Of a DNA stretch of 64,000 nt, positions 4,852-24,963 are shown one piece after another. The notes under the pieces are model-generated. The model was given only the letters and a program-made list of their open reading frames with translations. It had not been told where the DNA came from and made no database searches. This DNA is from Paenibacillus sp. UNC499MF (lineage in GTDB: Bacteria > Bacillota > Bacilli > Paenibacillales > NBRC-103111), in contig NZ_FNVF01000004.1 in assembly GCF_900107975.1 (NCBI RefSeq), forward strand, positions 310,001 through 374,000. The letters run 5' to 3'. Positions within the stretch are counted from its first letter, which is position 1, and the number at the start of each line of letters is the position of its first letter. The translations under genes were made by a program, and so were the position numbers.

Positions 4852-6168
4852 TCAATCCATTTCGTAGATCGAGCCGGATTTGCTCGCGTAGAGCTCGGCG
4901 GCGACTTTCTCCGCGTAGGCATCGGTCATGCCGGAAATATAGTCGGCGACCAGACGGGGCCAAGACCAGACGGAGCGGTGGCGCTCGTAGTTCTCGATCC
5001 AGTCCGGCGGAATAATAAGCTGCCCGTGATCGGGCACTTTAAAGCTGCCCCACAGCCGGCGGATGATGATTTCGCTGCGCTTCTGGAGCCGCTGGACACG
5101 GAAGTCCTTGACTAGCGTGACCCAGGCGAGCTTCTTGATGATCTCCATCGTACGGAGAAGATCAAGGTCCTGGCGGCCCTCGCGCACGAACGTGACACGC
5201 TTCCAGCCTTTATCCGGGTCGTCGATGATGCCGACTTTGCCGGCGAAGGAGCTGACCCAGCGGGCTTTCATCTCTCGGCGCGTGCGCGAGGCTTCCCGGT
5301 CGCACTGGGCGTAGATGAGCTCCCACTGCTGGAGGTAGGAGGCGAGCACCTGCTTGACCATCGCGGCAATGTCGACCTGCTCCCAGCCGACCTCCAGGTT
5401 GCCCTGGTCGTTCACGATTTCCTGAACGAGGTGCCCGATCAGCCGGTCGTCTTCGAAGAAGGAGCGGTTCATCTGGATTTTGCCGGCACGGATGCCGTCC
5501 TCGATATCATGCGTGGAATAGGCGATGTCGTCGCACAAATCCATCAGCTGGGCTTCCAGCGTCGGGCAGCCTTCCGGCATGTTCCACATGTCCCGGAGCT
5601 GCCGGATGCCCTCCCATTCCATCCCGTACACGCCCTTGAGCCGTCCCGGCTCTTCCAGGCTGTACGGGTATTTGTTGATGGCCAGAAGCACGGCGGCCGT
5701 CAAATCCAGGCCGCTGTCGCTGCCGGCCCGCTTCTCCAGAAACGTCAAAATCCTGAAGTTCTGCGCGTTTCCTTCGTAGGAAAGACCATGCTCCTCCCCG
5801 AGGAGATGATTGAGCACTTCCTCGCCTTTGTGGCCGAACGGAGGATGTCCCAAATCGTGCGCGAGCGACGCGCATTCCACGACGGCAGGATCGATCATCA
5901 ATCCGGGATGCTCCCCGCCGATGCAAAACGCGTATTGTTTTCTCATACGCCGGGCAACCTCGCGGGCAATCTGCGAAACCTCGATGGAATGGGTGAGCCG
6001 CGTTCGGTAATAGTCACCGGTCCCCGCACCGAATACCTGCGATTTGCCCTGCAGCCGGCGGAACACCGGAGACTGGATAAGACGGGCGTAATCGCGCTCG
6101 TATTCGTCCCGCTCTTCGCTGAATGTCCCCTGGGAGGGTTCATCCAAACGGTACTTGCGCATATCCAT
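4852..6168 (-). CDS. HD-domain deoxynucleoside triphosphate triphosphohydrolase (Dgt/YwfO-like)
   Basis: A 438-residue cytosolic enzyme of the dNTPase branch of HD proteins, which split dNTP to deoxynucleoside plus tripolyphosphate. Metal-binding motifs appear in order: RLTHSIEVS (about 56), SLAHDLGHPPFGHKG (about 99-113) and CDDIAYSTHDIEDG (about 209-220). The N-terminal YARLIQSPVFRRLQGKSQVF is also typical. The longer reading frame begins at 6246, but AAGGGGG nine bases before the ATG at 6168 decides the shorter start. Which dNTP is used, and whether it is activated by dNTP binding, cannot be read from the sequence. Confidence 0.9.
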   Translation of the reverse strand: MDMRKYRLDEPSQGTFSEERDEYERDYARLIQSPVFRRLQGKSQVFGAGTGDYYRTRLTHSIEVSQIAREVARRMRKQYAFCIGGEHPGLMIDPAVVECASLAHDLGHPPFGHKGEEVLNHLLGEEHGLSYEGNAQNFRILTFLEKRAGSDSGLDLTAAVLLAINKYPYSLEEPGRLKGVYGMEWEGIRQLRDMWNMPEGCPTLEAQLMDLCDDIAYSTHDIEDGIRAGKIQMNRSFFEDDRLIGHLVQEIVNDQGNLEVGWEQVDIAAMVKQVLASYLQQWELIYAQCDREASRTRREMKARWVSSFAGKVGIIDDPDKGWKRVTFVREGRQDLDLLRTMEIIKKLAWVTLVKDFRVQRLQKRSEIIIRRLWGSFKVPDHGQLIIPPDWIENYERHRSVWSWPRLVADYISGMTDAYAEKVAAELYASKSGSIYEMD

Positions 6169-6365
6169 CCACTGCTTCCCCCTTCCTGTTTTCTCTATAT
6201 GTGAATAATCCTGACACGTGAAGACGTTTTGCAAATTGTAGCACATCCGGTCCCTGCGGGAAAAGAGGACAAAGATTCAGACGACCATTCGACCATATCG
6301 CGGCGGCCGGGATAAAGGGAGCCGCAGACGGGAGTTCGGAGGGAAATGCCGGGCCCGCATCCGTT

Positions 6366-7662: not shown

Positions 7663-9114
7663 TCAGCGGGCAAGCCTGCGGATCAGAACGGAAAGTTTCA
7701 GCAGTCCCTTTTCCAGATCCTCGAAAGAAGCGTAAGAATACGAAATCCGGAGATAAGGGCCGGGGAGAGGATCGTACAGGCTTCCGGGATTCAGAAGGAT
7801 GCCTTCCTGAAGTCCCTTCTCAAACAACTCTCTCATGGAAAGGGAGGGGGTCAGTTTGAGCCAGATGTAAAAGCCTCCCGAAGGAACCTCCCAGGAAGCG
7901 ATATCCTTGAACCCGCTGTCCAGCAGCTCCAGGGTCCGGTTGCGGCGCTTCCGCATTTCCGTACGGACTGTCTCCAGATGCGGCGCATATAACCCGCCGG
8001 AGAGAAGCTCGGCGGCCGCCCACTGCGACAGTGAGCTGGAGCCGTAGTCTGTCTGCATCTTAAGGTCGGCCAGCCGATCGATGACGGCTTCGGGTCCGAC
8101 CACCCAGCCGATGCGCAGGCCGGGACTCCATGTCTTGGACAGGCTCCCGAGGTGGAGGACCAGTCCGCTTCTGTCCATCGCTTTCAGGGGCGGAGGCGGG
8201 GGCTCGTCGAGCCAGAGCTCGCGGTACACGTCATCTTCTATGACGGGAAGCTGCGCTTTCTCGCACGCGTCAAGCAGCTCTTTTCTCCGTTCCTCCGGCA
8301 TCAGGGTGCCGGTCGGATTATGAAAAGACGGGATCGTATAGAGCATGGCTCCCTTGGTACGTTTGGCCAGCTCCGGGATGCGGTCCGCCATTATTCCGCG
8401 CTCATCCATAGGAAGGCCGCATAGTCGGACCCCGGCCGATTGGAACATATGGAGCGAGAACAAGTAGGACGGCTTCTCCAGCAGCAGGGTGGAGCCCGGC
8501 GGCGATAGGCCCAGAGAAATGAGCTGGAGCGCCTGCAGAGCTCCCGAGACGATCAGAATGGACGAAGGCGAGGCTTGGATGCCGCTTGTGCCCAGATAAG
8601 CGCTGACCTTCTCCCGGAGGGGGAGAAGACCCTTCGGCTCCTCGTAGCCGAGCGAAGTCATGCGGCCCGGCAGCCTCTCCAGCACTTTTCTCGTCATTTC
8701 ATGGGGGTGAAGGTCGGGAGAAAGTTCTCCCGTTCCCAGCCTGATAATGCCCGGTGTAAATTCCGCCCGGTTGATCTCGCGGACCATCGCCCGGTTAGGC
8801 CGGTGGACGCCCGATTGCACGTAGGAGGGCCAGTCGGGAGCAGCGGCCGGCGCGAGCAGCGTCCAGGAATTGTTGACGACCCGCGTGCCGCTTCCGCTGC
8901 GTCCCTCCAGAATTCCGTCGGCGATCAGCTCGTCAATGGCCGCCACGACGGTGCTGCGGTTGACCTCGAAGACCGCGGCCATAGTCCGCTGAGGCGGGAT
9001 TTTCACGCCTACGGGCCACTCGCCGTTTTCGATTTTGCTTATAATGTACTGCTTGATTTGAAGAGATAAGGGGATGGAAGAAGCCCTGTCGGGTTTCCAG
9101 CTGCTGTCCTGCAT
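7663..9114 (-). CDS. MocR/PdxR-type regulator (GntR HTH fused to class I aminotransferase)
   Basis: 483 residues. The first 80 or so are a GntR winged helix (IPLSLQIKQYIISKIENGEW, then PPQRTMAAVFEVNRSTVVAA). A linker leads into a fold-type I aminotransferase domain covering the rest (GALQALQLISLGL, YTIPSFHNPTGTLMPEERR, IEDDVYRELW). The PLP-binding lysine is K327 in GSLSKTWSPGLRIGW. Such proteins sense PLP or an amino-acid adduct and often control the divergently transcribed neighbour, here a LysE exporter 193 bases away. The frame is open to 9225, but AGGAA seven bases before the ATG at 9114 and the position of the HTH support the shorter start. Confidence 0.9.
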   Translation of the reverse strand: MQDSSWKPDRASSIPLSLQIKQYIISKIENGEWPVGVKIPPQRTMAAVFEVNRSTVVAAIDELIADGILEGRSGSGTRVVNNSWTLLAPAAAPDWPSYVQSGVHRPNRAMVREINRAEFTPGIIRLGTGELSPDLHPHEMTRKVLERLPGRMTSLGYEEPKGLLPLREKVSAYLGTSGIQASPSSILIVSGALQALQLISLGLSPPGSTLLLEKPSYLFSLHMFQSAGVRLCGLPMDERGIMADRIPELAKRTKGAMLYTIPSFHNPTGTLMPEERRKELLDACEKAQLPVIEDDVYRELWLDEPPPPPLKAMDRSGLVLHLGSLSKTWSPGLRIGWVVGPEAVIDRLADLKMQTDYGSSSLSQWAAAELLSGGLYAPHLETVRTEMRKRRNRTLELLDSGFKDIASWEVPSGGFYIWLKLTPSLSMRELFEKGLQEGILLNPGSLYDPLPGPYLRISYSYASFEDLEKGLLKLSVLIRRLAR

Positions 9115-9217
9115 GACGGTTCCTGCTTTCATGGGAATAGCGGATTCTGAAACGCGCTTCCGTACTAAGCCGGTTGCGGTCCGATGGTTCCAGTATAACG
9201 CTTGGTTGGCTCCCGAT

Positions 9218-9233
9218 CCATCCAAATGGATGG
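9218..9233. promoter_or_regulatory. inverted repeat between the MocR and LysE genes, candidate operator
   Basis: CCATCC-AAAT-GGATGG is a perfect six-pair dyad in the 193-base divergent intergenic region. Related half-sites (GATGGTTCC, CCGATCCATCC) lie next to it at about 9183 and 9214. On the minus strand a TTATACT at about 9193-9199 could serve as the -10 of the regulator gene. Binding by the MocR protein is inferred from position only. Confidence 0.5.
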
Positions 9234-9307: not shown

Positions 9308-9937
9308 ATGATGCTGACGGCTGCGGCTGCCCTGCACGGCCTGATACTGGCTTTGGGGCTTATTTTGCCTCTCGGGGTGCAGAACGTATTTATTTTCAAC
9401 CAAGGGGCTTTGCACCAAAAATATACCCGCGCCCTTCCGGCCGTTCTGGCCGCTTCGGTCTGCGACACGGTTCTGATCGGTTTGGCGGTTTTCGGCGTTT
9501 CCGTGCTCGTTCTGAAAATCTGGTGGATCAAAACCTTGCTCATGAGTGCGGGCGTAATATTTCTTGCCTATATGGGCTGGACAACGTGGAAGAGCGCTTC
9601 GCGCGAGGAAGGGAACGAACCGGCGGCCGGTGATGAGGCACGTTACCCCGCACGCAAGCAGATCGCATTCGCCGCTTCGGTTTCCCTGCTGAATCCTCAT
9701 GCCATCCTGGATACGGTAGGTGTGATCGGGACGAGTTCCCTGCAGTATACCGGTACGCATAAGTGGGGGTTCACTCTGGCATGTATTCTTGTTTCCTGGG
9801 TCTGGTTCTTGGGACTGGCCGCGCTGGGCTGGCTGACGGGCCGTGCAAGCGGGTCCGCCCGGTTCACGGCGGTACTAGGCAAGGTGTCGGCCATTGTGAT
9901 GTGGCTGTCGGCCGGTTATATTGTATTTTCTTTTTAA
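9308..9937 (+). CDS. LysE/ArgO family amino-acid exporter
   Basis: A 209-residue membrane protein with about six hydrophobic segments. It has the family's N-terminal signature (LGLILPLGVQNVFIFNQGAL) and the conserved SLLNPHAILDTVGVIG near residues 122-137. Family members export basic amino acids such as lysine and arginine. A GGAGG lies upstream of the ATG (a second ATG follows immediately). Divergent transcription from a MocR regulator suggests induction by an amino acid or PLP-related signal. Substrate not determined. Confidence 0.9.
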   Translation: MMLTAAAALHGLILALGLILPLGVQNVFIFNQGALHQKYTRALPAVLAASVCDTVLIGLAVFGVSVLVLKIWWIKTLLMSAGVIFLAYMGWTTWKSASREEGNEPAAGDEARYPARKQIAFAASVSLLNPHAILDTVGVIGTSSLQYTGTHKWGFTLACILVSWVWFLGLAALGWLTGRASGSARFTAVLGKVSAIVMWLSAGYIVFSF

Positions 9938-10024
9938 TGTTCGTGTTTTGGTCGCTTTAGTGATTTTTTTCTTTGTGAAATCGTCATTTACAAAAAATAA
10001 ACCGAATATTTAATCGGATTTAGG

Positions 10025-10053
10025 TTGACTTTGAACATAAATTTCGTTAACCT
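10025..10053 (+). promoter_or_regulatory. promoter for the purine-riboswitch transcript
   Basis: TTGACT (10025-10030), a 17-base spacer, then TAACCT (10048-10053). A start near 10060 would place the small GGGGTAATTGCCCC hairpin and the purine aptamer at the 5' end of the message. Confidence 0.7.
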
Positions 10054-10098
10054 GTTTAAGGGGTAATTGCCCCGCCAACAACTTAATTTGCGTTTTAC

Positions 10099-10207
10099 CT
10101 ATTCGTATATCTTTGGCAATACGGGCCAGAGGTCTCTACAAGGAACCGAAAATTCCTGGCTACGAATGGACGGTTTTTCCGTACCATTCGAAGGCCGGGA
10201 TTTTTTT
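10099..10207 (+). promoter_or_regulatory. purine riboswitch, guanine-type aptamer, with overlapping terminator
   Basis: The aptamer spans 10101-10167. P1 is ATTCGTA/TACGAAT; P2 is CTTTGGC/GCCAGAG closing loop AATACGG; J2/3 is TCTCTAC; P3 is AAGGA/TTCCT with loop ACCGAAAA. Every spacing equals that of the xpt aptamer. The ligand-contacting bases are all present: U22 (10108), U47 (10133), U51 (10137) and C74 (10160). C74 predicts guanine or hypoxanthine rather than adenine. The expression platform is a hairpin in which 10155-10160 pairs with 10194-10199 and 10164-10169 with 10184-10189, followed by seven T. It consumes the 3' strands of P3 and P1, so terminator and aptamer exclude each other and ligand should switch the gene on, as in pbuE. 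Confidence 0.9.
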
Positions 10208-10260
10208 GCGCGCCCGGCTTAAAACCTGATACCTTTCATAACTGACTGGGGGATACGATC

Positions 10261-11700
10261 ATGAGCAACCGTTACGACGTCATTATTGTGGGGGCCGGAC
10301 CGGCCGGGATATTCGCTGCCTATGAATTTTCATTAAAAACACCGCACCTTAAAGTGCTGCTTGTAGATAAAGGGCATGACATCGACAGCCGCCGCTGTCC
10401 GATCCTGGAAGAAAAGATCAAGCTGTGTCCGCCTGCCGCGGGACGCAAGGAATTCGCGGGCTGTCTGCCCGCATGCTCGATTACCGCAGGTTTCGGCGGA
10501 GCGGGGGCTTACAGTGACGGCAAGTTCAACATTACGACGGAATTCGGAGGCTGGCTGACGGACTATCTGCCGCCATCCCGCGTTTTGGATCTCATCCGGT
10601 ATGTGGATGACATCAACCTGAAGCACGGGGCACAGCAGACGCTGACCGATCCGCTGACGGACGTCGTGTCTTCCATTGAGAACCGTGCCTATGCGGCGGG
10701 ACTCAAGCTCCTCCGGGCGCAGGTCCGCCATCTCGGGACGGAGCAGAATCTTGAAATCCTCCGTTCGATCAATACGTACCTGAAAACAAAAGTGGACATG
10801 CGTTTCAAAACGGAAGTGGCCGATCTGCTGACGAGCAAAACGGCCGAAGGCCATAAGATCCGGGGCATTGTGCTCAGCAGCGGGGAAGAGATCGAAGCCG
10901 ATTCCGTGGTCGTAGTGCCGGGCCGCGACGGGTCCGCATGGCTGACGAACGTTCTGCGCAAGCGCCGCCTGAAAATGTACAACAACCAGGTCGATGTCGG
11001 CGTCCGCGTGGAAACATCTGATGTCGTGATGCAGGAAATCAACAAGCATCTGTACGAAGGCAAATTCATTTTCAACACGTCGGTCGGCACCCGTGTCCGC
11101 ACCTTCTGCAGCAATCCTTCGGGACATGTTGTCGTGGAAAATCACAGCGGCGTCATGGCGGCCAACGGCCACGCATACAAAGATCCGGCGCTCGGTTCGC
11201 GGAACACGAACTTTGCCCTGCTGGTCTCGCATCAGTTTACGGAGCCGTTTGATAAACCGAACGAATACGCACGAGAGATTTGCAAACGTGCCAACGATCT
11301 CTCCAACGGAGGCGTCATCGTACAGAAATACGGCGACATTATCCGCGGCCGCCGCTCTACGGAAGGCCGGATCAAGGAAGGATTTCTGGAGCCGACATTG
11401 AAAGAAGCCGTTCCCGGCGATCTGGGACTCGTTCTTCCTTACAATACGATGAAGAGCCTGGTCGAAATGGTAGAGGCACTGGAAAAAGTAACGCCGGGCA
11501 TCGCGTCCGAGCATACGCTTTTTTACGGCGTGGAGGCGAAATTTTACTCTGCCCGTCCGAAGCTCACCGAGCAGCTCGAAACCGAAATCGCCGGTTTGTA
11601 CTGCGGCGGGGACGGAGCGGGCGTAACGCGGGGACTGGCCCAGGCGGGAGCGGCGGGCGTATGGATCGCCCGTGCGGTAGCGGAACGGGCTCAAGGTTGA
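10261..11700 (+). CDS. FAD-dependent oxidoreductase of the COG2509 type, under purine riboswitch control
   Basis: 479 residues, cytosolic. An N-terminal dinucleotide-binding motif VIIVGAGPAGIFAAYEF (residues 7-23) is followed by a cysteine-containing segment (RRCPILEEKIKLCPPAAGRK, then CLPACS) and GGAGAYSDGKFNI, characteristic of the uncharacterised FAD-dependent dehydrogenase family COG2509. The C-terminal FAD motif is LYCGGDGAGVTRGLAQAGAA. No substrate is established for this family to my knowledge. Its only recognisable control element is the purine riboswitch in its 5' leader, which hints at a role linked to purine (guanine, hypoxanthine or xanthine) metabolism. GGGGG precedes the ATG. 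Confidence 0.85.
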   Translation: MSNRYDVIIVGAGPAGIFAAYEFSLKTPHLKVLLVDKGHDIDSRRCPILEEKIKLCPPAAGRKEFAGCLPACSITAGFGGAGAYSDGKFNITTEFGGWLTDYLPPSRVLDLIRYVDDINLKHGAQQTLTDPLTDVVSSIENRAYAAGLKLLRAQVRHLGTEQNLEILRSINTYLKTKVDMRFKTEVADLLTSKTAEGHKIRGIVLSSGEEIEADSVVVVPGRDGSAWLTNVLRKRRLKMYNNQVDVGVRVETSDVVMQEINKHLYEGKFIFNTSVGTRVRTFCSNPSGHVVVENHSGVMAANGHAYKDPALGSRNTNFALLVSHQFTEPFDKPNEYAREICKRANDLSNGGVIVQKYGDIIRGRRSTEGRIKEGFLEPTLKEAVPGDLGLVLPYNTMKSLVEMVEALEKVTPGIASEHTLFYGVEAKFYSARPKLTEQLETEIAGLYCGGDGAGVTRGLAQAGAAGVWIARAVAERAQG

Positions 11701-24687: not shown

Positions 24688-24760
24688 TTATGCACGCAAC
24701 AAAAAAAGTTTGCGATCTCAAACACCTCCCTATTCCTCGTAGGTCGTATCAGTGCTGTCA

Positions 24761-24938
24761 AAACAGGCAGGTCTCCTGGCTCGGGGCGTCCATACCGGCG
24801 CCTTCCCGGAACGTTCTGGTTCCAGTGGCTTCTTGCCGGATGTGAATGAGAGTGTTTCCCCTTACAGTGGCGGGACCGCGACGGCATTTCACCGTTCTTC
24901 CCTTTTAAATTTTAGAGTGTCTCTAAAATACCTGTTTC
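24761..24938 (-). promoter_or_regulatory. cobalamin riboswitch
   Basis: On the minus strand the RNA has the defining pieces in order: P1 5' arm AAACAGG (24937-24931), GGTGAAATGCCG, the core GGTCCCGCCACTGTAA, a peripheral arm containing AAGCCACTGGAACC, the B12 box GAGCCAGGAGACCTGCC, and the P1 3' arm CCTGTTT. It precedes the cbiMNQO cobalt importer, the expected target of B12 feedback. Confidence 0.95.
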
Positions 24939-24963
24939 CACAAATATGCGGTTTTCCGTGATA

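Follow-up and report, generated by a model that had tools for sequence, protein, structure and literature searches.

A predicted guanine-responsive ON riboswitch upstream of a conserved four-cysteine flavoprotein gene in Paenibacillus

A canonical guanine riboswitch aptamer, of a type usually described as an OFF switch, is present ahead of a flavoprotein gene in Paenibacillus sp. UNC499MF, in a conserved leader predicted to act as an ON device. The leader is very probably a transcriptional guanine ON riboswitch; the flavoprotein would therefore be produced when guanine is in surplus, and most likely functions in purine metabolism. Two unrelated regulatory elements, i.e. the riboswitch and, at many homologues, a PurR-type operator, in this way point to a place in purine metabolism for an uncharacterised flavoprotein that is widespread in the Bacilli, an assignment that can be tested.

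Results

The Rfam covariance model for purine riboswitches (RF00167) matches positions 10083-10182 on the + strand of the window, i.e. the whole 64,000-nucleotide stretch of DNA analysed, with 70.5 bits (gathering threshold 37, E 2e-10), the match ending 78 nt 5′ of the flavoprotein ATG. The sequence, Rfam alignment, folding and covariation define a guanine-I type aptamer at 10099-10169 (+ strand), in which P1 (10099-10107/10161-10169), J1/2 (UAU, 10108-10110), P2 (10111-10117/10125-10131), an 8-nt J2/3 (GUCUCUAC, 10132-10139), P3 (10140-10145/10153-10158), a J3/1 of 2 nt and C74 (10160) can be read from the sequence. The GG/CC bases of the L2-L3 loops are present, as are the ligand-contact bases U22, U47, U51 and C74, so the core is canonical, as the original prediction of a guanine-type purine riboswitch with all four contact bases had it. 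The same prediction held the spacing to be identical to that of xpt; this is true of the 8-nt J2/3, but not of the interval from J2/3 to C74: the window shares a value of 28 nt with 73 of 80 related loci, compared with 30 nt in 49 of 55 purE/xpt/pbuG switches. Because C74 takes the place of the U74 of pbuE, guanine specificity is to be expected. Assignment of the aptamer to the adenine class was ruled out from C74 (10160) in place of U74, to guanine-II or xanthine-II from the 8-nt J2/3, the 2-nt J3/1 and the absence of the defining insertions and of U51G, and to a reported 8-oxoguanine class (see Discussion) from the canonical core and the different gene downstream. A candidate promoter (TTGACT - 17 nt - TAACCT, 10025-10053, + strand) and a probable Shine-Dalgarno sequence (GGGGGAT, 10248-10254, + strand) were located by eye.

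An intrinsic terminator, identified by folding, script call and covariation, lies at 10154-10207 on the + strand, with its hairpin at approximately 10154-10200 and a U7 tract at 10201-10207. Its 5′ arm consists of the P3 3′ strand of the aptamer, C74 and the P1 3′ strand, in agreement with the earlier proposal that a terminator at 10155-10207 uses the 3′ strands of both P3 and P1; the window hence has the pbuE-like arrangement. With these elements of the aptamer taken into the terminator, the two structures are mutually exclusive. Folding of the 67 nt from 10150 to 10216 gives -29.9 kcal/mol (z -4.5), a value equalled by none of 200 shuffles. In a series of increasing RNA lengths, the fold with P1 forced equals the best fold up to 10188, the terminator is ahead from 10192, and, once the U tract has been made (RNA ending at 10208), a forced P1 carries a penalty of 15.6 kcal/mol. 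Folded at full length with no ligand, the RNA strongly favours the terminator; switching would therefore have to be kinetic. We propose that, as RNA polymerase moves past the aptamer, guanine or hypoxanthine would lock the three-way junction together with P1, such that the terminator could not form and the flavoprotein gene would be read, and that, with no ligand, the strand 10179-10200 would invade and capture the P1 and P3 3′ strands, including C74, to give the terminator.

Covariation was assessed over 32 sequences, comprising the window, which replaces L005, and a non-redundant set (33) from the 74 loci with a called hairpin, with L084 omitted owing to a long insertion. The aptamer helices are 96.3% paired and the terminator outer helix is 97.8% paired, the latter percentage being favoured by the choice of loci at which the hairpin had already been called. 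Two-sided changes occur in nine of 18 aptamer pairs (P2 6/7, P3 3/5, P1 0/6) and in three of the seven pairs of the terminator outer helix; position 73 and its partner, for example, are A-U in 17 sequences, G-C in 11, G-U in three and unpaired in one. The number of two-sided pairs and the number of pair types in the outer helix are weak taken alone, since they were reached by 37 and 40 of 500 shuffles, respectively; no shuffle among the 500 matched its paired percentage, its number of cells altered on both sides or its covariation score. Native terminator arms give a mean of -27.8 kcal/mol, compared with -23.0 kcal/mol when arms are exchanged among species; at most eight of 31 foreign arms are as good as the native arm in 24 of 32 cases, and none is as good in five of 32.

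The aptamer and its terminator are conserved at homologous genes. A purine-aptamer motif is present upstream in all of the best 80 of 339 related stretches in the genome collection (L005-L084, from Paenibacillus, Cohnella, Brevibacillus and one record titled Bacillus sp.), and the Rfam gathering score was reached by each of the 19 leaders from this subset that were submitted. C74, U47 and an 8-nt J2/3 of the form GTNTCTAC are found in 80/80, the search pattern itself having demanded TA at 22-23, TCTAC in J2/3 and C or U at 74. An invading terminator, defined as a hairpin of at most -15 kcal/mol starting at least 2 nt before C74 and followed by TTTT and six T in eight, was called by script at 74 of the 80 loci; the six that the script missed (L016, L022, L023, L041, L070 and L079) have the same hairpin by eye, with weak U tracts at L016 and L022. 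Among 69 further loci, chosen from orthologues and from 250 genomes of the class, 18 (L150-L167) have the aptamer, and the invading terminator was called at 17 of these, the exception, L160, having the hairpin with a weak U tract.

Orthologues of at least 75% identity are present in 51 of 79 family genomes (split in G035, with one internal stop in G078). R1, a covariance model built on the ON design, matches just upstream of 49 of these 51, with at least 67 bits in 46. The other three (L262-L264, in G011, G029 and G039) score 59-63 bits and have the aptamer, with no terminator called; they are orthologues of one genus in which the aptamer is directly ahead of the Shine-Dalgarno sequence, and their control may be translational. 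No R1 match was found upstream of the orthologues in G007 and G008, both of which have a PurR-type operator pair; the G008 leader (L265), in which a purine aptamer was looked for and none found, shows by eye, ahead of the flavoprotein gene, an independent hairpin resembling a terminator, with a U tract.

Three further purine riboswitches are present in the window's own genome, ahead of genes named from their translations as purE, xpt-pbuX and pbuG, and in all three the terminator is distal to the aptamer, weak overlapping hairpins of approximately -10 kcal/mol being present in two. For a broader comparison, 60 riboswitches were chosen for diversity among the matches listed for the 79 family genomes and labelled by tblastn with the purE/xpt/pbuG genes of the window's genome; eight (L124, L125, L126, L129, L131, L132, L133 and L139) were set aside as other genes or types, leaving, with the three from the window's genome, 55 controls. 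By script, 44 of the controls have a distal terminator, nine have none called, one is partial (L122) and one is invading (L118, pbuG). J1/2 is UAA in 51 of the 55, as against UAU in 74 of the 80 flavoprotein loci. The originally predicted ON architecture is thus strongly supported by the anatomy of the leader, covariation, cross-species conservation and OFF-type controls of the same riboswitch family.

The ON design extends to other genes. R1 scores at least 66.8 bits at the eight set-aside loci, all ON-type and outside its training set, and at most 57.7 bits at all 55 controls (highest at L118). L132 and L133 are of the adenine type, with an MFS transporter and an adenine deaminase profile. 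All 31 other R1 matches of at least 59.7 bits in the 79 family genomes were then taken (L231-L261); blastp clusters assign their genes to 21 amidohydrolases, six EamA-type and two NCS2-type proteins, L233 being NCS2-like by its start and L239 having no assignment by script. Of the 31, 21 have a called invading terminator; the rest comprise eight with an altered or diverged core missed by the aptamer pattern, L232 (distal) and L244 (none). R1-type leaders precede amidohydrolases at L125, L129, L231 (with a diverged core), L234-L238, L240-L242, L245-L247, L251, L253 and L257, EamA-type transporters at L139, L244, L255 and L258-L261, and NCS2-type permeases at L124, L126, L232, L233 and L252; all of the EamA-type and NCS2-type leaders except L232 and L244 have a called invading terminator. 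In Pfam, L260 is assigned as EamA and L124 and L252 as Xan_ur_permease. The NCBIfam cut-off for the model named '5'-deoxyadenosine deaminase' is passed by the four of these genes that were tested (L125, L129, L231 and L235); the guanine ON switch at these amidohydrolases suggests a guanine-related deaminase role.

PurR responds to PRPP and recognises the PurBox at promoters, in which CGAAC and GTTCG are inverted and 24-25 nt apart. Within the set of 69 loci, 51 are without the aptamer (among them one fragment, distant paralogues and four loci with weak hits to the pattern), and CGAA[CT]-N22-27-[AG]TTCG occurs at most 250 nt from the start in 28 of these 51 Bacilli leaders, compared with 0.2 expected from mononucleotide shuffles. 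The consensus of 54 operator halves, AAA.ACGAAC.TT, agrees with the PurBox, and the same operator pair precedes purA in eight of 12 genomes tested. The window's genome encodes PurR (TIGR01743, 375 bits; cut-off 258.7), and its matrix pair scores are 27.6 for purE, 31.2 for xpt, 30.6 for pbuG and 23.2 for the region before purR. By contrast, the median pair score of the 80 riboswitch loci, 9.3, is well below these values, 72 of the 80 being above the 95% level and 47 above the 99% level of block shuffles. The window has a single operator half (ATAAACCGAATATTTA, 9997-10012, + strand; half score 12.3 with a weight matrix from other Bacilli); a second half is not recognisable in its leader, the pair score of 0.4 being below the 95% shuffle level of 3.7. 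From these low scores and the half-site, it may be that PurR control persists in part of the riboswitch group, and it seems degraded in the lineage of the window. Many relatives with the switch have a PurR-type operator, degenerate to varying degrees, at the promoter, and many Bacilli without it have the operator alone; repression by PurR and an ON switch are expected to act in opposite directions.

The flavoprotein ORF (479 aa, 10261-11700, + strand) was characterised from the ORF list, Pfam, a PDB match and alignment. It has an FAD-binding N-terminus, a C-terminal PF21688 domain (residues 246-427, 33.8 bits against a gathering threshold of 27, E 5e-8) and homology over residues 149-475 to VP0956 (PDB 3nlc, E 2.6e-22); these tool-based matches define its identity here, COG2509 being the label of the original prediction. 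A match to it is present in 97 of 250 genomes of the class (Bacilli). Cys46, Cys68 and Cys72 are kept in 80/80 near and 61/61 farther homologues of at least 40% identity, and Cys56 in 80/80 and 59/61. Four of six homologues below 40% identity align Cys46, Cys56 and Cys72, and none of the six has a cysteine at Cys68, the four having a cysteine cluster nearby in the displayed translations. Judged by this pattern, the four cysteines may be ligands of zinc or of an iron-sulphur cluster. The AlphaFold2 model is poor (mean pLDDT 55, 38 close sequences).

Elsewhere in the window, a cobalamin riboswitch (RF00174, 120 bits) is present at 24749-24950 on the - strand. On the same strand, the ORF at 4852-6246 resembles by eye an HD-domain dGTP triphosphohydrolase, and a MocR-type regulator gene (7663-9225) is divergent from a LysE-family exporter gene on the + strand (9308-9937).

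Discussion

The conserved pairing of a guanine aptamer with this gene in many Paenibacillus-like bacteria points to a probable role of the enzyme in purine metabolism. The link is strengthened by the PurR-type operators on homologues lacking the switch, and by the amidohydrolases and transporters that share its design. Operon context was dropped as a clue to function, because conserved neighbours were not found: the largest non-self cluster is present at 20 of 80 loci, and at seven loci or fewer in a second set of 69. It is thus regulation that connects the flavoprotein with purines. This lack of conserved neighbours would also be in keeping with an enzyme outside purine metabolism, e.g. one of redox balance, iron-sulphur or tRNA chemistry, that is needed at high guanine, and it is relevant in this regard that the top Pfam score is for GIDA (PF01134, 40.5 bits against 22.1), with an NCBIfam MnmG match far under its cut-off. 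Such a role, which is compatible with the ON switch, is a real if minority possibility; the presence of two unrelated purine-linked regulatory elements at the gene argues against it.

A different question is whether another purine, such as xanthine, 2′-deoxyguanosine or 8-oxoguanine, is sensed, as in rare Paenibacillaceae variants, with the gene answering that compound. An 8-oxoguanine ON riboswitch on the guanine-riboswitch scaffold was reportedly described in the Paenibacillaceae, in PNAS in 2023. Seven of the ON-type leaders found here (L239, L243, L248, L249, L250, L254 and L256) have an altered J2/3, with CTCTAC not preceded by GT, and are probably members of this class. According to PMC9295807, Paenibacillus guanine-I riboswitches are predicted to be OFF and guanine-II to be ON, ON platforms are also predicted for xanthine-II and a nucleoside-sensing variant, guanine-II and xanthine-II are defined by insertions in J2/3 and J3/1, and xanthine-II in addition by U51G. 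Together with the subtle differences of the flavoprotein leaders from the OFF controls (in J1/2 and in the interval from J2/3 to C74), these precedents lend the proposal some substance. It is nevertheless improbable, in that the window keeps U22, U47, U51, C74 and the 8-nt J2/3, with neither the insertions nor U51G, and that the core without the GU of J2/3 is found at other genes, of which the one tested (L249) passes the NCBIfam cut-off of the model named for 8-oxoguanine deaminase.

That PurR is the main regulator, with the riboswitch minor or relict, is very unlikely. The operator pairs on homologues, and more degenerate ones at riboswitch loci, would be accounted for; against this, the window is without a full operator pair, and the aptamer and terminator have been kept with covariation. 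An OFF switch with an unrecognised antiterminator, which the four guanine switches of Clostridioides difficile and yxjA of Bacillus subtilis might lead one to expect (all OFF; PMC11477304 and PMC9756952), is scarcely tenable and was rejected, as the single terminator called before the ATG consumes the 3′ strands of P1 and P3, whereas the other three switches of the genome have distal terminators.

A guanine ON switch is thus the preferred reading. The predicted sign is opposite to that of the other three guanine switches of this genome, a ready-made contrast with which to ask how an expression platform by itself determines the direction of control. More tentatively, and with considerable doubt, there might be a guanine-surplus regulon in the Paenibacillales, in which canonical guanine aptamers in ON platforms would govern amidohydrolases/deaminases, NCS2 and EamA transporters and the four-cysteine flavoprotein, the last of which would catalyse a redox step that is linked to purines and undescribed; where a PurR operator and the ON switch stand in series, as at the flavoprotein in many species, the two might form an AND gate that requires PRPP and guanine both to be high.

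Compared with the guanine-I riboswitch of xpt-pbuX (RF00167), the three-way junction, U22/U47/U51/C74, the 8-nt J2/3 and the L2-L3 GG/CC bases are the same. By contrast, the flavoprotein loci have an ON rather than an OFF platform and an unusual gene, the distance from J2/3 to C74 is 2 nt shorter in 73/80, and J1/2 is UAU rather than UAA in 74/80. The reported 8-oxoguanine riboswitch is similarly said to be an ON switch of the Paenibacillaceae on a guanine-riboswitch scaffold; however, its likely members in the present set have an altered J2/3, which the window does not. Guanine-II (PMC9295807) shares predicted guanine ON control in Paenibacillus, but differs in the J2/3 and J3/1 insertions and in the gene controlled. 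The closest likeness in design is to the pbuE adenine switch, which is an ON switch with a platform overlapping the aptamer through P3 (PMC9756952), the terminator likewise being formed from the 3′ strands of P3 and P1; the window differs in having C74 in place of U74, and an oxidoreductase-like flavoprotein in place of an efflux pump. The resemblance of the protein to VP0956, itself uncharacterised and with no function stated, is confined to residues 149-475. Among the titles listed in a literature search, with most subscription papers outside its scope, none connects this family of flavoprotein genes with riboswitch or PurR control, and a guanine-I aptamer in an ON platform was not found among them. 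The aptamer class and the pbuE-like design are thus each known, and it is the combination of a guanine-I aptamer with an ON platform, this gene and a link to PurR that is new in the literature searched.
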